64,000 bases of DNA from Microcella putealis (GTDB lineage Bacteria > Actinomycetota > Actinomycetes > Actinomycetales > Microbacteriaceae). The stretch is taken from contig NZ_SGWW01000001.1 of assembly GCF_004216575.1 (NCBI RefSeq), positions 744,001-808,000 on the forward strand. Direction: 5' to 3'. A program made the position numbers and the translations under genes. Below, one piece after another: positions 49,508-58,503 of this stretch. How positions within the stretch are numbered: the stretch's first letter is position 1; each line of letters starts with the position of its first letter. The notes below the pieces were generated by a model. The model had not been told where the DNA came from and made no database searches. It worked only from the letters and a program-made list of their open reading frames with translations.

Positions 49508-50536
49508 ATGCCCATCGCCACCCCCGAGCAGTACGCCGAGATGCTCGACAAGGCCAAAAAGGGCGGGTTCGCCTACCCCGCCATCAACGTCTCGTCGTCG
49601 TCGACGATCAACGCCGTGCTGCAGGGCCTCACCGAGGCCGGCTCTGACGGCATCCTGCAGGTCACCACCGGTGGCGCCGACTTCTTCGCCGGCCAGAGCG
49701 TGAAGGCCCGCGCCTCGGGCGCCCTCGCCTTCGCCGCGTTCGCCACCGAGGTCGCCAAGAACTACCCCATCACCGTCGCGCTGCACACTGACCACTGCCC
49801 GAAGGACGCCCTCGACGGCTTCGTCATGCCGCTCATCGAGGCGAGCGAGGCCGAGGTCAGGGCCGGCCGCAACCCGATCTTCCAGTCGCACATGTGGGAC
49901 GGCTCGGCCGTGCCGCTCGCCGAAAACATTGAGATCGCCCGCGAGTTGCTGCCCCGCATGAAGAGCATCAACGCGATCCTCGAGGTCGAGATCGGCGTCG
50001 TCGGCGGCGAGGAAGACGGCGTGCAGCACGAGGGCTCGAACGACGCCCTGTACACGACCCTCGGTGACGTCGAGCAGGCCGTCGAGGCCCTCGGCCTCGG
50101 CGAGAACGGCCGCTACATGGCCGCCCTCACCTTCGGCAACGTGCACGGCGTCTACAAGCCTGGCAACGTGAAGCTGCGCCCCGAACTACTCGCCGAGATC
50201 CAGCAGGGCATTGCCGCGAAATACGGCACCGGCGCCCTGCCGCTCGACCTCGTCTTCCACGGCGGCTCGGGCTCGACCGACGCCGAGATCGCCACGGCGG
50301 TGCAGAACGGCGTCATCAAGATGAACATCGACACCGACACGCAGTACGCCTACAGCCGCTCGGTCGCCGACAGCGTGCTCAAGAACTACGACGGCTTCCT
50401 CAAGGTCGACGGCGAGGTCGGCAACAAGAAGGTCTACGACCCGCGCGCGTGGGGCAAGGCCGCCGAGACCGCCATGGCGAAGCGCGTCGTCGAGGCGACG
50501 CAGCAGCTCGGCTCGGCCGGGCACTCGGGCCGCTAA
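49508..50536 (+). CDS. fbaA: class II fructose-bisphosphate aldolase
   Basis: A 342-residue zinc-dependent aldolase that interconverts fructose-1,6-bisphosphate and the triose phosphates. Zinc and catalytic residues are seen in LHTDHC (His93, Asp95, His96). The segment EVEIGVVGGEEDG and the phosphate-binding FHGGSGS follow. A strong GAGGAG precedes the ATG, and TAGACT (49464-49469) is a likely -10. It shares an intergenic region with glpX. Confidence 0.97.
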   Translation: MPIATPEQYAEMLDKAKKGGFAYPAINVSSSSTINAVLQGLTEAGSDGILQVTTGGADFFAGQSVKARASGALAFAAFATEVAKNYPITVALHTDHCPKDALDGFVMPLIEASEAEVRAGRNPIFQSHMWDGSAVPLAENIEIARELLPRMKSINAILEVEIGVVGGEEDGVQHEGSNDALYTTLGDVEQAVEALGLGENGRYMAALTFGNVHGVYKPGNVKLRPELLAEIQQGIAAKYGTGALPLDLVFHGGSGSTDAEIATAVQNGVIKMNIDTDTQYAYSRSVADSVLKNYDGFLKVDGEVGNKKVYDPRAWGKAAETAMAKRVVEATQQLGSAGHSGR

Positions 50537-50542
50537 AGCCTG

Positions 50543-51763
50543 CTAGCTCTCCCCCGGCTCATCACGGTGAGCCGGCGTCGCACGGGGCGTGCGCTGCACC
50601 AGCGGCGTGCGCCCCGTCGGCGTTTCGGCGGCCGCCTCGAACGCCACCTCCAGGTCGGCGCCGTCGCGCCAGCGGATGTCGCGCACCGCCGCCGACAGCG
50701 ACACGTAGTACGGGGCGAGGAACGTCACGCGCCGCCCCTCCGGCAGCGTGGTCGAGATGCGCATGGCCACGGCCACGTGCAGATCATCGGATGCGCGAAG
50801 CGCGATTCGCGCGGACACGAAGCCCGATTCGGGGTGCGCCATCAGCGCATCCAGCATTGCCCGCAGCGCGGTGCGCTGCGCGACGGTGAGGCGGTCGGCG
50901 AGACGATCCGGGTCGTCGAGTTCGACGGGGTGGCCGCGCACGACGCGTTCGAGCCAGGTGGCGGTCGCCTCGGCGAGCAGCGTGTGCCTCAGGTCGAGGG
51001 CGAGCGCCCGCGAGCGCTGAATGTCGCTCTCGTCGACGGAGCCGCGCTCGGCAACGCCGCGCAGAAAGGCGACGGCCGACGCGAGCTGCTCGCTCACCTC
51101 GCTGTCGACACTGTGCGCGAGCGCCCGGTCGTCGATGCCCGCCACGCCGGCCGTTGGGCGCGGCAGGGGCCGCTCACTCCACTGCACGAGTCGGCGCACG
51201 ATCGAGCGCGAGAGTACGGCGCTCGTCGTCGTGCCGGCAACGATCGGGGTGATGGCGATCACGACGGTGGTGAACGCCGGCCATGTGGGGTTGTCGGGCA
51301 CGACCAGCGCGAGCGTGATGACGGCCGTGCTCGCGAGCTGCACGATGCCGAGGGTGATGATCGCGAACGAACGCAGGTAGGGGGCGGCGGCGATGAGCAG
51401 CAGCGAAATCGCGAGCGGCGCCCACCACAGGGTCAGAGCGAACGCGTCGCCGCGATAGCCGAGGGCCGACAGCAGCACCCCGCCGACCATGAGCGGGGAC
51501 AGCGCCGCAACGACGACGGGGCTGAGTAGCCCGCGCGGCGGCCGACTGCGTGCGTGGATGAGCGCGCCCGCCGTGACGAGCACCCCAAGCGCCGCCCACT
51601 GCAGCGCCCAGCCCATCGTTGAAGGCGCCCGCTCGCTGACAATGGCGAGCGCACCGTAGACAGCGAGGACGAGCGTCGCCGTCACGGGCATGCCCGAGGT
51701 CGTGACCCAGCTGATCGGGTCAACGGACCAGGGCGAGGTGCTGCGGCGGCTAGCCACGGTCAC
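50543..51763 (-). CDS. membrane protein with degenerate histidine-kinase-like domain (cassette 2 partner)
   Basis: A protein of about 406 residues. The N-terminal half has about five to six membrane helices. The C-terminal half has a helix pair at the place of the kinase dimerisation domain but no phospho-acceptor His, then a beta-rich end with TLPEGRRVTFLAPYYVSLSAAVRDIRW. This ending is shared with the cassette 1 partner, which has LPEGRRTAVLAPYYLSAKSVVRDISW. No ATP-binding G-box is seen, so it looks like a pseudokinase (inference). GTG at 51763 lies within the 3' end of the kinase gene; GTG 51757 is possible. Function unknown. Confidence 0.7.
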   Translation of the reverse strand: MTVASRRSTSPWSVDPISWVTTSGMPVTATLVLAVYGALAIVSERAPSTMGWALQWAALGVLVTAGALIHARSRPPRGLLSPVVVAALSPLMVGGVLLSALGYRGDAFALTLWWAPLAISLLLIAAAPYLRSFAIITLGIVQLASTAVITLALVVPDNPTWPAFTTVVIAITPIVAGTTTSAVLSRSIVRRLVQWSERPLPRPTAGVAGIDDRALAHSVDSEVSEQLASAVAFLRGVAERGSVDESDIQRSRALALDLRHTLLAEATATWLERVVRGHPVELDDPDRLADRLTVAQRTALRAMLDALMAHPESGFVSARIALRASDDLHVAVAMRISTTLPEGRRVTFLAPYYVSLSAAVRDIRWRDGADLEVAFEAAAETPTGRTPLVQRTPRATPAHRDEPGES

Positions 51764-53006
51764 GCTCCTCGGCCGGCGTGACGGGCGCCGCGCACGCACC
51801 CGCACCCGCCGACGCTGACGATGCCGCGGCCGGCGTGATCGGCACGCGAAGCATCACCGTCGTGCCCTCATCACCCGACCACACCCGGGCCGAGCCCCCG
51901 ATGGCTCGCATGCGGCCGTGGATCGACTCCCGCAGCCCCAGCCGATCGGAACCGACGGCGGCCGGGTCGAAGCCGTGGCCCGCGTCGACCACGAGCACCG
52001 CGATGGCGTCGTCGCGCTGACCGATGACCAGCTCGGCGCGAGCGGTTCCGGCGTGTGCGGCGACGTTGTCGAGGGCGGCTCGCGTCGCGCCGACGAGGGC
52101 GTCGAGAATCGTCGCCGGCACCTCGGCCGTGACCTCCTCCGCCCCGCTCACCTGCACGGTCACGCCGTTCCAGCGGTAGCCGTCGGCGAGGTCGAGCAGC
52201 GCTTGGGCGAGCGGGGCGGGGGCGACGTCGGCGTGACGACCGGCCCGCCGCGGCTCAGTGGGGCGCGCGATCGCGTCGAGGTCCTTCACGATGTGGGCGC
52301 GCATCCGATCAGAAATCACGCCGGGGGCGTGCGAGACGGCCGCGAGGTCGGCGAGCACCGTGTCGTGAACGGCGGCCGCCGCTCGGCGCTGCAGCTCGCG
52401 CTCGCGCTCGTCGATCAGCACGGCGCGCTGCACGGCGAGAAATTCGGGGATACGCTGCTTCGCCCGATGCCGCACCGACGCGAGCAGACCAAACCCTGAC
52501 AGCGCGATGAGCCCGACGATCAGCGGGCCGTAGCCGACCGGACCGAGCTCTCCGAGCGCCAGCCACCCGCCGACGAGGCTCGCGTAGGCGACCGCCATTC
52601 CGGCGAGGGTCCAGCGCACGCCGCTACGCGCGCTGCCGGCAAGCGCGCCCACGAGTGGCAACGCCGTGGCGACGCGATTGAGCAGGAATGGATCAGAACC
52701 CACGTCGGCAAGCGTGACGAGGGCGACCACGCTCGCCGCGGCCGCAACGCCCCCGCCCACGAGGTACAGGGTGGCCGTGCGCACCGAGGGGGTCGCCAGC
52801 AGCAGCGCGGCGAGCAGGGCCATGGCGATGGCCGGGGCGAGGGCGAGGGCGATCGACCCGTCGAGACGGCCAGCTGCCGACACAACGTCGATGATCATCA
52901 CGGTGGTGAGCAGCGATCCGATGAGCGCGACGGTGCGCATGGCCGACGAGAGCCCAGAGACGACGACCGCGGCGGCGACGTCGCGGGGTAGAGCAACGGT
53001 GCGCAT
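51750..53006 (-). CDS. NarL-type membrane sensor histidine kinase (cassette 2)
   Basis: A 418-residue protein with five to six membrane helices (about 15-175), a short coiled linker, a HisKA_3-like dimerisation domain with His214 in AAVHDTVLADL, and an ATP-binding domain. The latter shows an N-box ALDNVAAHA, a G-box VVDAGHGFD, GLRESIHGRM and GTTVML. It pairs with the following gene. It is a close paralogue in layout of the cassette 1 kinase 46 bases beyond its partner. No response regulator is adjacent. Signal unknown. Confidence 0.85.
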   Translation of the reverse strand: MRTVALPRDVAAAVVVSGLSSAMRTVALIGSLLTTVMIIDVVSAAGRLDGSIALALAPAIAMALLAALLLATPSVRTATLYLVGGGVAAAASVVALVTLADVGSDPFLLNRVATALPLVGALAGSARSGVRWTLAGMAVAYASLVGGWLALGELGPVGYGPLIVGLIALSGFGLLASVRHRAKQRIPEFLAVQRAVLIDERERELQRRAAAAVHDTVLADLAAVSHAPGVISDRMRAHIVKDLDAIARPTEPRRAGRHADVAPAPLAQALLDLADGYRWNGVTVQVSGAEEVTAEVPATILDALVGATRAALDNVAAHAGTARAELVIGQRDDAIAVLVVDAGHGFDPAAVGSDRLGLRESIHGRMRAIGGSARVWSGDEGTTVMLRVPITPAAASSASAGAGACAAPVTPAEERDRG

Positions 53007-53052
53007 GCGTCTCCCCTCGCGGTCAGGTTAGTGGAGCGGGTTCACGTCTCGC

Positions 53053-54198
53053 TCAGTGCTCGCCGTCGACGTCGAAACGCACGACGAGCGAGCGGCCGTT
53101 CGTCCACGAAATATCGCGCACGACCGACTTGGCCGACAGGTAGTACGGGGCAAGCACGGCGGTGCGACGCCCCTCGGGCAGTTCGAGGTCGAGCGTGAGG
53201 GCCACGGCGACCTGGCCGTCGGCTCCCGGTGCCAGTTCGAGCCGGGCCGCGTACACCCCCGCCTCCTCGTCGGAGAACACGCCGTCGATGAGGGCGAGAA
53301 TGGCGGCCCGCTGATCGAGCGAGACGCGGTCGGCGAGGCGGTGCGGGTCAGTGACGTGCACGGCTCGCCGGGCAATCACGGCGCCGAGCCACCCGCTGCC
53401 GTCGCGGTCGACGAGCGCCGTGCGCAGCTGACCGGCGAGGCGTGCCGCGTGCTCACGCTCGGCGGGGCCGACCGTGCCGCCGTCGGCGATCGCGGTGAGG
53501 AATGGCAGCGCCTCCACGGTCAACGCTCCCCGCGTCGTGCGGTCAACGACGGCGACGGCTGGTTCGCGCAACGGCGCTGCCGCGAGCGTGTCGACCAGCC
53601 CGGCCCGCCACGCCTCGACTTCCTCGATGAGCAGACGGGTCAGGAAGGTGCCGCCAATCAGGGCGAACAGGGGCGAGGATGCGGCGATCACGATCTCCGC
53701 GCCCGGCGAGACCGCATCCAACGGCTCGGTCACGAGCACGGCGGCGAGGATGCTCGCGCCGGCCACCATGACACCCGCCGGCAAGAAGACGCGGCCGGGC
53801 ACGAATGGGCTGAGCGACATGACGACGAGCGCGGCGGCAACCGGCGCCCACCACAGTTCGGGCACGACCGGATCGCCTGTTCCCGAGCCCCCGCGGGCGA
53901 TCCCCCACGCGCTGGTCAGCACGGCGGCGCTCGCGAGTACGGGAACCGCCATCGCCGGCGCGAGACCGAAGCGGCGACGCGTCGGACGCGCCGCCAGGTG
54001 GATCAGCAGCGTGCCGCTGGCCGCGAGCGCGATGGCGACCCACTGGTAGATCGGCGCATCCGCACCCTGGCCACCCAGCAGCACGCCGCCCGCCCCAAGC
54101 AGCGCGATCACGAGCGGAACCCACGCGGTAACGAGCGACGCGGTCAGCCAGCTGAGCGTGTCGACGTCTTGCGCCGAGCGGCGCCACCACGTCGTCAC
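53053..54198 (-). CDS. membrane protein with degenerate histidine-kinase-like domain (cassette 1 partner)
   Basis: A 381-residue protein: five to six membrane helices (about 15-180), then a helical segment, LPFLTAIADGG, that lines up with VLSDLAAIAHG of the coupled kinase but lacks its His. The region AAILALIDGVFSDEEAGVYAARLEL sits where the kinase has its N-box. No G-box follows. The ending LPEGRRTAVLAPYYLSAKSVVRDISW matches the cassette 2 partner. The start codon overlaps the kinase stop (GTGA), so the two are coupled. Function unknown; probably forms a complex with the kinase. Confidence 0.72.
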   Translation of the reverse strand: MTTWWRRSAQDVDTLSWLTASLVTAWVPLVIALLGAGGVLLGGQGADAPIYQWVAIALAASGTLLIHLAARPTRRRFGLAPAMAVPVLASAAVLTSAWGIARGGSGTGDPVVPELWWAPVAAALVVMSLSPFVPGRVFLPAGVMVAGASILAAVLVTEPLDAVSPGAEIVIAASSPLFALIGGTFLTRLLIEEVEAWRAGLVDTLAAAPLREPAVAVVDRTTRGALTVEALPFLTAIADGGTVGPAEREHAARLAGQLRTALVDRDGSGWLGAVIARRAVHVTDPHRLADRVSLDQRAAILALIDGVFSDEEAGVYAARLELAPGADGQVAVALTLDLELPEGRRTAVLAPYYLSAKSVVRDISWTNGRSLVVRFDVDGEH

Positions 54199-55442
54199 GG
54201 CGCCTCCCCGTCGCTCGCCGAGCCGCGTGGGACGGCCAGGAGCACCGTCGTGCCGGCTTCGGACGACCAGATGCGTGCCGTGCCCCCCGCCCGCTCCATG
54301 CGACCGATGATCGCTTCGCGCAGGCCCAGCCGGTCGACCGGAACCGCGTCGGTGTCGAAGCCGAGCCCGTCGTCGACGACCAGCACGGTCAAGCGGTCAT
54401 CGTCGCCGCCGACGGTGAGCTCGACCCGCTCGGCCTGCGCGTGCCGACGCACGTTGTCGAGTGCCGCACCCACCGCGCCGTGCATCGCCTCGGCCATCGC
54501 CGGATCCAGCCCGTCGTCGCGCAAGAGGTCGACGCCGGTGAGATCGATTCGGCCGCCGCGCCAGCGGTGATCTTCGACCAGTTCGAGGAGGGCGCGACCG
54601 AAGGTGCCCTCGCGCGGCACGATCGAGACCGTGCCGGTGTCGGAGGCGGTCGCCCCGGCGAGCCGCGCGAGGTCAGCGCGAATGCGGTCGCGCATCCGCT
54701 CATCCAGGGGGCCCTCGCCGTGCGCGATGGCCGCCAGGTCGGACAGCACGGTGTCGTGCACGACGGCAGCCGCCGCGCGCTCGCGGCGTCGGCGTTCGTC
54801 GGCGCGCCGCGTTTCTCGAGCGATGTCACGAAAGGCGGGAAGCCTGCCGCGGGTGCGGCGCCATCCGATGTCGACGACGGCAAACGCCGCGGCCATGATG
54901 GCGGCGTCGACGGCGCGGTCGGGCGAGAGCCGCAGTGGCTCGCCGGCGATGAGGTGCCCCACGATCAGGGCGATGGTGCCGAGCGTGAACCCGGTCGCGA
55001 TCCAGCCGATGCCCCCCAGCCCGCGGGCACCCAGGGCGCCGACGAAGGTGAGGGCGACCGCTGCCCCCTCGACGATGTAGCCGTCTCGATCACCCAGGGG
55101 GGCCGCGTAGGGAACCGCGAGGGCGACGTAGGCGGTGCCGACGATGAGGCCGACGCCCATGTGCAGCAGCATCGTCGCCCGCCGAGGACGCAGGGCGAGC
55201 AACACCGAGGTGCCAAAGACCGGCACCCAGGCGAGCACCAGGGCGAAAACCCCGTCGCTGACGCCCGCCGACACCGCTGCGTCGCCAATGACGGCGAGCA
55301 CGAGCAGCAGGGCTGCGGGGCCGATCCACCGCATGGCGGCGCTCAACCCCCGCACCAGGCCCGCTGCGGAAACGCCGCGGGGAGCCGGCAGCGCTGAAGG
55401 CCGCACGGCCGGGGGCACGCCGGGAGCCAGGTCGGACGTCAC
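54195..55442 (-). CDS. NarL-type membrane sensor histidine kinase (cassette 1)
   Basis: A 415-residue protein with about six membrane helices (about 30-190), a charged helix, and a HisKA_3-type box with His229 in AAVVHDTVLSDL. The ATP-binding domain follows with N-box ALDNVRRHA, G-box VVDDGLGFD, GLREAIIGRM and GTTVLL. Key residues look intact. GTG at 55442 lies 19 bases after the ispH stop, so the cassettes may be co-transcribed with ispH. No response regulator is encoded in the window. Confidence 0.85.
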   Translation of the reverse strand: MTSDLAPGVPPAVRPSALPAPRGVSAAGLVRGLSAAMRWIGPAALLLVLAVIGDAAVSAGVSDGVFALVLAWVPVFGTSVLLALRPRRATMLLHMGVGLIVGTAYVALAVPYAAPLGDRDGYIVEGAAVALTFVGALGARGLGGIGWIATGFTLGTIALIVGHLIAGEPLRLSPDRAVDAAIMAAAFAVVDIGWRRTRGRLPAFRDIARETRRADERRRRERAAAAVVHDTVLSDLAAIAHGEGPLDERMRDRIRADLARLAGATASDTGTVSIVPREGTFGRALLELVEDHRWRGGRIDLTGVDLLRDDGLDPAMAEAMHGAVGAALDNVRRHAQAERVELTVGGDDDRLTVLVVDDGLGFDTDAVPVDRLGLREAIIGRMERAGGTARIWSSEAGTTVLLAVPRGSASDGEAP

Positions 55443-55461: not shown

Positions 55462-56541
55462 CTAGTTCCGGGTGCGGCCGCCGAGCGCGCGCTCGTCGCG
55501 CTCGCCCGTGGCCGTTGTCCGCAGCTCCTTCGGCAGAGAGAACATGAGGTCCTCCTCAGCCGTCTTCACGATCTCAACGTCGTCGAAGCCGGCGTCTTTC
55601 AGGTCGGCGAGCACCTGCTCGACGAGCACTTCGGGGACGCTGGCGCCGCTCGAGACGCCGACGCTTGACACGCCCTCGAGCCACTCCTGCTTGATCTCAC
55701 TTGCGTAATCAACGCGGTACGCCGCCTTGGCGCCGTACTCGAGGGCGACCTCGACGAGTCGCACACTGTTCGAGCTGTTCGCGGAGCCCACGACGATGAC
55801 GAGGTCGGCCGAGGGTGCGACCTTCTTGATCGCCACCTGGCGGTTCTGCGTGGCGTAGCAAATGTCATCGCTCGGGGGATCGGCGAGGTGCGGGAAGCGC
55901 TCGCGGAGGCGGCGCACCGTCTCCATCGTCTCGTCGACGCTGAGGGTCGTCTGCGACAGCCAGATGAGGTTCTCGGTGTCGGGCACCTCGATGCGGTCAG
56001 CCTCGTCGGGGTCGTTGACGAGGATGGTGCGCTCGGGCGCGTGGCCCATCGTGCCTTCCACCTCTTCGTGACCGGCGTGGCCGATGAGCAGAATCCAGTA
56101 GTCCTGCTTGGAGAAGCGCACGGCTTCGCGGTGCACCTTCGTCACGAGGGGGCACGTGGCGTCGATCGCCTGCAGTTCGCGATCGGCGGCACCCTGCACG
56201 ACCGCGGGGCTGACGCCGTGCGCCGAGAACACGATGTGGGAACCCTCGGGCACCTCGTCGACCTCGTCAACGAAGATGGCGCCACTCTTTTCGAGTTCGG
56301 AGACGACGTGCACGTTGTGCACGATCTGCTTGCGCACGTAGACCGGAGCGCCGTACTGCTCGAGCGCCTTTTCAACGGCGATGACCGCGCGATCGACGCC
56401 CGCGCAGTAGCCGCGGGGCGCGGCCAACAGCACCCGTTTGGGCCCCGTGACCGACGGGTCGGGGCGGAGGCGCTCGCGGCGCTCAGGGACGACGGGCGCG
56501 GTGAGGGTGGTGCCGAGGGCGCCGTTCGTGATCGTGGACAT
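55462..56541 (-). CDS. ispH: 4-hydroxy-3-methylbut-2-enyl diphosphate reductase
   Basis: The last enzyme of the MEP isoprenoid pathway; it makes IPP and DMAPP. A 359-residue protein with the three iron-sulfur cysteines Cys46 (RGYCAGVD), Cys130 (DATCPLV) and Cys228 ([10 protein letters not shown]), the conserved SAHG (His108) and the Ser/Asn substrate motif SANSSNS. The first 30 residues are a polar extension. ATG at 56541 has TAGACT seven bases upstream, so it is leaderless. Confidence 0.97.
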
Positions 56542-56584
56542 CGTGGCCAGTCTACGGGGCGGTTCTGGGCATCCGACCGGCCGG

Positions 56585-57409
56585 TCAGTCGACGTCGCGC
56601 CGCAGGGTCGTCGCCGCCGCAAGAGCGACAAGCGCGAGGCTCAGCACCGCAAGCACGAGCCCGCCTTCGAGCCTCGTGAGCGGCTCGATGACGCCGGGCA
56701 CGGTCGGATCGAGTTGGCCGATCGACGCGAGGATGCCGGCCCCGACCAGCGAGTCGGTCGCGGCCCCGGGGAGGTAGCGGGCGGCCTCCGCAGACCACTC
56801 GGCGGCACCCGCCACGATGCGCAAGATCGGCTCCACGAATTGCGTGAAGACGAGCACGATGACGATCGCGGCGATCTGGCTCGTGAGCAGGGCGCCCAGG
56901 CCGAGGCCCAGCAGCGACCAGAGGGCGCAGGCCAGCACCGTGCGCGCCAGGAGCCCGAGCACCTCGGGTTCGGCGAGCAACGGATCGGTGCCGAACGCGG
57001 CTAACACCGGTGCGCCGGCGGCGACCGAGACAACGGCGCCGATCACGCCATACAGGGCGCCCAGCACCAGCGCGACAATCAGGCGCCCCGCCAACACGAC
57101 GACGCGACGCGGCTGCGCGAGCAGCGTGGGCGTGAGGGTGCGCCAGCGGTACTCGCTCGTGGCCAGCAGCGCTCCGAACAGCAGCGGCACGACGAGCGCC
57201 ACGCTCGTCGTCGAGCTGTACACGAGCGGAGCGGCCACCTCGGCGGGAAGTGGACCCGGGCCATTTAGCTCCGAGCTCGAGACGAAGAACGCAAAGCCGC
57301 CCGCCGTGACCGCGACGTACAGGCCGAGCACGACCGCGAGAATCCACCAGGTGCGCAGCGAGAAAACGCGCAGCAGTTCGGCGTGAACGGCGCGACCGAG
57401 GGCCCTCAT
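56585..57409 (-). CDS. ABC-2 type transporter permease
   Basis: A 274-residue membrane protein with six hydrophobic helices in the ABC-2 exporter arrangement, with a polar loop after helix 1 and [16 protein letters not shown], an amphipathic region before helix 3, typical of this group. ATG overlaps the stop of the upstream ATPase gene (ATGA at 57409-57406), so they form one exporter. Substrate unknown. Confidence 0.9.
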
Positions 57410-58362
57410 GCGGCGACCTCCCCCGCGAAGGCGCTTGAGGCATCCGTCGTCGTGTCAGTGGCCGCCGCATCGTCCGCCGTGAGGCGCAGGAAGATCGACT
57501 CGAGGTCGTCGCCGAGCGGCGCCAGCAGCGTCAGCGGGATTCCAGCGGCGAGCGCCGCCCGCCCGACGGCGTCGGCGTCGAGCCCGGTGGCCACCAGATG
57601 GCCATGGTCGGGGGTGTCGATGCGGGCTCCGGCGGCGGTCAGCGTCGCGCTGAGGGCCGCGCGGTCGGCCGCGTCGACGCGCACCCGCGCCTCGACGCCG
57701 GCCGCGAGATCGTCAAGGGCCCCCGTCATGACGATGCGGCCGCGCGCGATCACGACCACGTCGTCGACCGTCTGGGCGACCTCGCTCAACACGTGGGACG
57801 ACAGCAAGATGGTGCGACCCTCCGCCGCGAGCTCGCGCAGAAAGACGCGCATCCACGTGATGCCGGCAGGGTCGAGGCCGTTGATCGGTTCGTCGAGCAC
57901 AAGCACACCGGGGTCGCCGAGCAGCGCGGCGGCGAGACCCAGCCGCTGGCGCATGCCGAGCGAATATCCGCCCACCCGCCGGTCGGCGGCATCGCTCATG
58001 CCGACGCGGCGCAGCACGGCCTCGACCCGCTCAGCGTCGAGGCCCGCGGCGATCTGCAGCACGCGGAGGTGATCGCGGCCGCTGCGGCCGGGGTGAAACA
58101 CATCGGATGAGAGGGATGCACCCACGCGCCGCGCCGGGTCGTCGAGCGCCGCGTAGGCGGTGCCGCCGAACGTCGCTGTTCCGCTCGTGGCGCGGGCGAG
58201 GCCGAGGAGCACGCGCAGCGTGGTCGTCTTACCCGCGCCGTTGGGGCCAAGGAAGCCCGTGACGCGGCCGGGCTGGGCGGAGAAGGTGACGTTCTCGACG
58301 GCCGTGATGGCCCCGAAGCGCTTCGTCAACGCGCGAATATCTATGGGAGTGCTTGTGGGCAT
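57406..58362 (-). CDS. ABC transporter ATP-binding protein (ABC-2 exporter type)
   Basis: A 318-residue ATPase with Walker A GPNGAGKTTT (about 39-48), signature LGMRQRLG, Walker B LVLDEPINGLD and switch His in SSHVLSE. The C-terminal 100 residues are an added regulatory domain. It drives the coupled permease. It is divergent from xseA. Confidence 0.94.
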   Translation of the reverse strand: MPTSTPIDIRALTKRFGAITAVENVTFSAQPGRVTGFLGPNGAGKTTTLRVLLGLARATSGTATFGGTAYAALDDPARRVGASLSSDVFHPGRSGRDHLRVLQIAAGLDAERVEAVLRRVGMSDAADRRVGGYSLGMRQRLGLAAALLGDPGVLVLDEPINGLDPAGITWMRVFLRELAAEGRTILLSSHVLSEVAQTVDDVVVIARGRIVMTGALDDLAAGVEARVRVDAADRAALSATLTAAGARIDTPDHGHLVATGLDADAVGRAALAAGIPLTLLAPLGDDLESIFLRLTADDAAATDTTTDASSAFAGEVAA

Positions 58363-58503
58363 CCTGTCCCCCGATCGCTTCCCTCGATCCGGTCGGCGTC
58401 GGGGGCGTCTACTACCCTGGCGAGCGCGCGGGGTGGCCGCAAGCGACGCGCCCGGCGACCGCCCACGACGCACCCTCATGCCCCTCCACGAACCCGGAAC
58501 CCG

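Follow-up and report, generated by a model that had tools for sequence, protein, structure and literature searches.

Histidine kinases (HKs) are usually described as homodimers. In the FasBCA system of group A Streptococcus, two kinase-like proteins heterodimerise and act on one response regulator (RR), and one of the two has been proposed to be a pseudokinase, as the excerpted text of PMC12675982 describes. For Corynebacterium glutamicum, an excerpt of PMC9491836 reports that native ChrS and HrrS heterodimerise in a two-hybrid assay and that inactive ChrS raises HrrS signalling to ChrA. In alphaproteobacteria, the catalytically inactive pseudo-histidine-kinase DivL tunes the active kinase CckA (excerpt of PMC12189002). 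Here we describe two tandem cassettes of Microcella putealis (Microbacteriaceae), each composed of a gene for an HK with intact catalytic motifs (HK1, HK2) and, directly behind it, a gene for a membrane partner protein (P; P1, P2). They lie beside ispH in a 64,000-nucleotide stretch of assembly GCF_004216575.1 (contig NZ_SGWW01000001.1, positions 744,001 to 808,000), referred to below as the window. The HK-P cassettes are real and conserved, and sequence, gene order and predicted fold give good support to the pairing of a kinase with a pseudokinase. The output protein of the ispH-linked cassettes is probably encoded elsewhere in the genome.

FasBCA appears to be the nearest known analogue. The excerpted account gives each of its kinase-like proteins six putative transmembrane segments, a DHp and an HATPase domain, a layout resembling the one found here. 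However, FasC keeps a His (H246) that is needed for activity, and the RR lies in the Fas locus (PMC12675982), whereas P lacks the His and the ATP-site motifs and the ispH-linked cassettes have no adjoining RR; their paralogues in M. putealis (L084, L085 and L086) have one. The ChrS pseudokinase of the excerpt of PMC9491836 is a frameshift mutant made in the laboratory, with which no heterodimers were observed, whereas P is a separate protein family of its own, found across the bacterial family. P differs from DivL by its fixed gene pair with its own kinase and by the lack of a conserved His. DesK of the DesK-DesR system is the best structural match of P; DesK, however, is an active kinase crystallised with its RR, and P is neither. 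Compared with a canonical two-component system, the ispH loci contain the kinase motifs and lack the RR. Judged from the sequences, what sets the present pairs apart is a partner that has lost both the His and the ATP-site motifs, is found across the bacterial family, and occurs in duplicated cassettes without an adjoining regulator.

The sequence-only reading of this DNA had placed two tandem cassettes of kinase plus membrane partner here, and four minus-strand open reading frames (ORFs) were found accordingly (Table 1). It had described the kinases as NarL-type with intact His, N-box and G-box. The catalytic motifs are retained in both HK1 and HK2. The His (H), the Asp at H+1, the Asn and His of the N-box, the D/G/G of G1 and two tested glycines of G2 were invariant in 30 of 30 ispH-type kinases (alignment A2); in a wider set, H and N were present in 55 of 55, one of which has Glu at H+1. 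The assignment as histidine kinases stood, and the NarL label proved loose. HK1 and HK2 resemble the NCBIfam families MctS/MacS far below the cut-off, with 40.1 and 60.4 bits, respectively, against the curated 300 bits for MacS (NF047322), which places them outside that family. HisKA_3 was under threshold in both, and HATPase_c was borderline in HK1 (25.2 and 28.3 bits in two scans, cut-off 26.4) and under the cut-off in HK2. Among PDB sequences the HK profile found VraS, DosS, DosT and DesK. At H+5, where DesK/NarX-type kinases have their phosphatase Gln, 21 of 21 HK2 sequences have Ala and 7 of 7 HK1 sequences have Ala or Ser. Among the ispH-type kinases from other genera, 19 of 27 carry Asn there, and all 33 of the 33 kinases of the type linked to tdk carry Ser, Asn or Gly. 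Given these residues, phosphatase activity may differ among the kinase groups.

The lack of a His and a G-box that had been noticed in P1 and P2 extends through the partner family. In 61 partner sequences, the number with His at any one cytosolic column never exceeds 11, Asn stays below 40% in every column, and the D.G.GF box was found in none; an unaligned HD[STG] string is present somewhere in five. The C-terminal LPEGRR..LAPYY..VRDI block is common to P1 and P2, as had been claimed. Its [PA]EG[RK] element occurs in 38 of 43 ispH-type partners versus 0 of 18 tdk-type partners, and PYY in 34 of 43 versus 0 of 18. Neither Pfam nor NCBIfam matched the partner family above cut-off. The partner profile found no relative among PDB sequences, returning only Tetraspanin-7 at E 0.37, and a profile-profile comparison of P with HK gave a match in the N-box region (E 6e-4, probability 28.8, 54 columns).

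AlphaFold models of P1 and P2 were built from family alignments and reached mean pLDDT values of 81.9 and 87.9. In both models, roughly six long membrane helices are seen together with a DHp-like hairpin of two helices and a domain of the order beta-alpha-beta-beta-alpha-beta-beta. Predicting the partners alone had been suggested as a check, and it returned a histidine-kinase-like fold: DesK ranked first in Foldseek for both (E 0.026 for P1, 0.013 for P2, probability 1.00), with zero matches for either model at E 0.001. In VIA, the best kinase rows had Z 9.9 for P1 (7.2 A over 139 residues) and Z 10.3 for P2 (2.5 A over 98), and DesK and other kinase CA domains were matched at Z 8-10 over about 100 residues; the N-terminal part of the models matched unrelated membrane proteins too, at Z 9-10. 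The assignment of the fold is based on rank, probability, VIA Z score and secondary-structure order. According to these models, P1 and P2 are membrane pseudo-histidine-kinases with a predicted DHp and CA fold that have lost the catalytic residues. The view of the partners as ordinary membrane proteins was disfavoured by the fold searches.

LiaF-type proteins are accessory proteins that restrain a kinase. P might act in this manner, as an inhibitor or scaffold of HK and not as a DHp dimer partner, with the output still passing to an RR in trans. P always stands directly behind HK, and the tuning of CckA by the inactive DivL (excerpt of PMC12189002) offers a precedent. The retention in P of a DHp-like hairpin followed by a CA-like domain argues otherwise, since it suggests dimerisation through the hairpin, and we consider the inhibitor or scaffold explanation rather improbable.

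In all loci fetched by P matches and classified, P was positioned directly behind an HK of the same clade (60 of 60 and 19 of 19, together 79 of 79); each of the 79 thus has the gene pair for two kinase-like membrane proteins of a Fas-like system. The P profile matched 183 of 299 genomes of the bacterial family, in 50 of 78 genera (E 0.001, weak matches included; six candidates per genome scored, so that copy numbers are lower bounds). An order-level sample of 346 genomes revealed P in 13, all of the same bacterial family (five candidates per genome scored, copy numbers again being lower bounds). With the P1 query alone, nothing was found in 23 genomes of other families, and a search for the partner in plasmids gave no match. 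In the samples searched, the partner family is confined to one bacterial family. No description of such a partner family was found among open-licence papers.

Classification of the 60 family loci revealed two main settings. The first, ispH-HK-P-fba without RR, comprises 25 loci from other genera (L118-L142), 24 of which carry an ispH label and all 25 an fba label; a receiver scan over 7-13 kb of these loci found none in any of the 25. The 15 ispH-type loci among L088-L103, 13 with ispH and 14 with fba labelled, gave no receiver either, and neither did the ispH-type setting of L068. The window itself contains no receiver domain at E 0.001, in agreement with the sequence-only reading; the nearest ones on its contig lie at distances of about 210 kb and 165 kb. 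In the second setting, HK-P-RR, an orthologue of the tdk-linked RR of M. putealis follows P (31 of 60 loci); the tdk gene itself was scored only in scans made after this classification. The remaining 4 of the 60 loci hold HK-P without RR (L170, which is cut by a contig end, L171, L172 and L177). Conservation of an RR gene next to the cassettes among near relatives had been named as evidence against a unit lacking its own regulator: there is none at the ispH locus, in the 25 and 15 loci above, and paralogous cassettes elsewhere do have one.

A search for further cassette copies, likewise proposed beforehand, revealed three additional triads in M. putealis, namely L084 and L085 (HK-P-RR) and L086 (RR-HK-P). 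L084 is the tdk-linked HK-P-RR unit. The partner of the L085 triad (L085:6151-9380) is a distant family member (E 3e-15), and that of the L086 triad (L086:6040-9084) went unrecognised by the P profile (E 0.19). Quick trees of P and of HK (support in brackets) were calculated. The P tree contains an ispH-linked clade (99), in which P1 (100) and P2 (99) are sisters (96), and the HK tree shows HK1 (100) and HK2 (99) as sisters (97), matching the topology of P1 and P2. These matching sister clades indicate that the two cassettes of the window go back to an old tandem duplication of the ispH-type unit. A P1-type copy was found in 9 of 25 same-genus relatives, several of whose genomes are incomplete, at 48-79% identity.

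We propose that each cassette would form a heteromeric membrane sensor consisting of an active DesK-like HK and the pseudokinase P encoded directly behind it. HK would autophosphorylate, and P would be the dimer partner that shapes sensing and the balance of kinase and phosphatase activity. The phosphoryl group would then pass in trans to a regulator from another locus, most probably the tdk-linked RR of LuxR type, on which three HK-P pairs of M. putealis (HK1-P1, HK2-P2 and the tdk-linked pair) would converge. Of the readings considered, we favour this signalling in trans to the tdk-linked RR and regard it as somewhat more probable than not. The heteromer, the role of P and the phosphotransfer are what we infer; the wiring is put no more firmly because the genomes sampled were selected, are akin to one another and offer no phylogenetic power, because orphan RRs also occur without a cassette, and because some genera keep HK-P without this RR.

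The sequence-only reading had allowed for either no cognate regulator or a distant one. A distant regulator is favoured and the lack of any disfavoured, because the paralogous cassettes carry a LuxR-type RR and because 16 genomes combine an ispH-type cassette with an orthologue of the tdk-linked RR that has no HK-P beside it. The tdk-linked RR has an orthologue in 58 of 58 chosen genomes (57 at at least 285 bits, G034 at 192), and 162 of 299 genomes of the bacterial family hold a tdk-type RR at E 1e-45 (nine candidates per genome scored), a co-occurrence with the cassette that is confounded by kinship and genome choice. Twenty RR contexts were inspected, most of them selected from genomes for which a single P was listed. 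In 16 of them, the RR stands before tdk with no HK or P match (E 0.001) in a genome with an ispH-type cassette; three others show the full triad plus an ispH-type cassette, and in one (G320) the RR stands by itself and the genome lacks P. Among the 16 orphan-RR genomes, 13 had their ispH context retrieved, and the other three (G205, G288, G252) were assigned by score. In 10 of the 16, full scans revealed either no other P (two genomes) or only a weak P beside its own C1b-type RR (eight).

The receiver residues (DD, D, S/T and K) are intact in 43 of 43 RRs with an adjoining HK-P. All five are intact in 16 of 16 orphan RRs from genomes with an ispH-type cassette; of the 16 orphan RRs from genomes in which neither an ispH-type nor a tdk-type P was detected, 6 retain them all (Fisher p 0.0002, rising to 0.002 when RRs that lack just the S/T are not scored as decayed; kinship is ignored in this test and its rows were chosen). 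Absence of P in the latter 16 genomes refers to full scans in three (no P in G320, weak matches only in G080 and G090) and to the best six candidates per genome in 13, among which G166, G105 and G085 have weak matches. G109 gave two P matches at a looser limit versus one in a full scan. A C2-type RR and kinase lie close to the orphan RR in L257-L259, and because the P profile misses the C2-type partner, C2-type pairs can be missed in these counts. A second, C2-type RR-HK pair was also observed near the tdk locus in genera g81 and g94 (L155, L163, L205, L206, L257, L258). Orphan RRs with decayed receivers, in which the acid pair, the acceptor Asp or the Lys is lost, still stand before tdk in L246-L249, L253, L254, L257 and L258; by their sequences they are candidates for phosphorylation-independent regulators.

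Several observations weigh against the proposed wiring. In a kinship-corrected receiver test, the four independent pairs gave 1.3 in the same direction and 0 in the other (median p 1, no power), and receiver decay requires only three changes on the RR tree, which carries long-branch warnings. Six of the 16 orphan-RR genomes that have an ispH-type cassette contain further P copies. Such copies occur in G093, G329 and G300; the ones inspected, from G252, G288 and G210 (L260-L262), are HK-P without a tdk-type RR. The 16 inspected genomes with an orphan tdk-type RR and no ispH- or tdk-type P, six of them with an intact receiver, indicate that the orphan RR does not need an ispH-type pair. Conversely, genera g94 and g95 have lost the RR but retain HK-P beside tdk (eight loci: L177, L205-L208, L211, L215, L220); among the nine candidates scored per genome, a tdk-type RR at E 1e-45 was unlisted for g94 and listed in g95 for G298 only. 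Since HK-P at tdk without RR and the RR without HK-P both exist, each can outlive the other. Genera g8, g12, g39 and g46 also have HK-P with no adjoining receiver. DHp identity of the ispH-type kinases averages 32-34% to tdk-type and 22-31% to C1b and C2 kinases. HK1 is 52% identical in this domain to the M. putealis tdk-type kinase and HK2 29%, the latter differing in no telling way from its 26% to C1b. DHp similarity singles out no single RR partner.

These identities, and the occurrence of three triads with related kinases in M. putealis, leave room for ispH-linked units that feed another RR of the genome, for instance one from the C1b or C2 triad, or more than one RR. The HK-P units of g94 and g95 without an adjoining tdk-type RR fit this picture, L205 and L206 having a C2-type RR nearby. 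Set against it, the top paralogue of HK2 outside the window is the tdk-type kinase (109.6 bits versus 70.8 and 27.6), the remaining RRs have their own adjoining HK-P, and the orphan pattern concerns the tdk-type RR; we regard such wiring as distinctly improbable. That HK-P works without any RR, for instance on another kinase or a membrane process, is very improbable: RR-less units persist in several lineages, and a tdk-type RR was unlisted in g8 as well as in g94 and g95 within the limits given above, but HK keeps all phosphotransfer residues, which argues for a phospho-acceptor, and each of the 58 chosen genomes has a tdk-type RR.

The genome search for an orphan LuxR-type RR that had been suggested gave none in M. 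putealis: a HATPase gene lies within about 2 kb of each of its 11 receiver-plus-GerE proteins. GerE matches without receiver (L060, L061, L066) were rejected as orphan RRs, since visual inspection assigned them to other kinds of regulator, L066 to the sigma factors. For another M. putealis histidine kinase (L076:976-1863; C1:219498-220160), no RR was seen in the 3.2 kb viewed.

On a wider scale, the cassettes could represent a family-wide, obligate class of hetero-kinase sensors with a dead kinase as fixed subunit, in which HK-P is a self-contained plug-in that duplicates and moves without a regulator and up to three sensors per cell converge in trans on the tdk-locus RR; we put this forward tentatively. 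If true, the HK-P pairs, some lineages having lost the regulator and others the pair itself, would provide a natural series in which to study the function of a pseudokinase subunit and the way multiple sensors connect to a single regulator. This would also give a proposed role to a partner family that Pfam and NCBIfam do not recognise.

Table 1. Features of the M. putealis cassettes, their neighbours and the candidate regulator (window positions unless a contig is named)
Feature	Position	Strand	Description	Basis
HK1	54195..55442	-	Membrane histidine kinase, DesK/MacS-like, catalytic motifs intact	ORF, motifs, alignment
P1	53053..54198	-	Predicted membrane pseudo-histidine-kinase without His, N-box and G-box; has the LPEGRR..LAPYY block	ORF, motifs, model
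HK2	51750..53006	-	Second histidine kinase of the tandem, a paralogue of HK1 at 35% identity	ORF, motifs, tree
P2	50543..51805	-	Second predicted pseudo-histidine-kinase, 30% identical to P1	ORF, predicted model
ispH (LytB)	55462..56631	-	Conserved neighbour of the cassettes	19 bases between ispH end and HK1
fba-like aldolase gene	49508..50536	+	Convergent, conserved other border of the cassettes	Gene context
Permease-like gene	56585-57409	-	Directly upstream of ispH	Same strand as cassettes
ABC-type ATPase	57406-58479	-	Directly upstream on the ispH side	Same strand as cassettes
tdk-linked LuxR-type RR	contig C6, 56113-56778		Candidate regulator	

The M. putealis genome is 2.5 Mb in size, and the window lies on contig C1. 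The closest named relative is Microcella alkaliphila, whose P1 is 79% identical (contig search, one relative returned). The overlap of partners with kinases that had been described was confirmed: HK1 and P1 share 4 bases, and P2 and HK2 share 56 bases if P2 starts at the listed GTG; its true start may lie downstream. The bordering aldolase gene is presumably fba. The order on the minus strand is ABC-type ATPase, permease-like gene, ispH, HK1, P1, HK2, P2, and the first two genes may form a common operon with ispH and the cassettes. In L089, L091, L096, L097 and L102, no ABC-type ATPase/permease-like pair was labelled between xseA and ispH.

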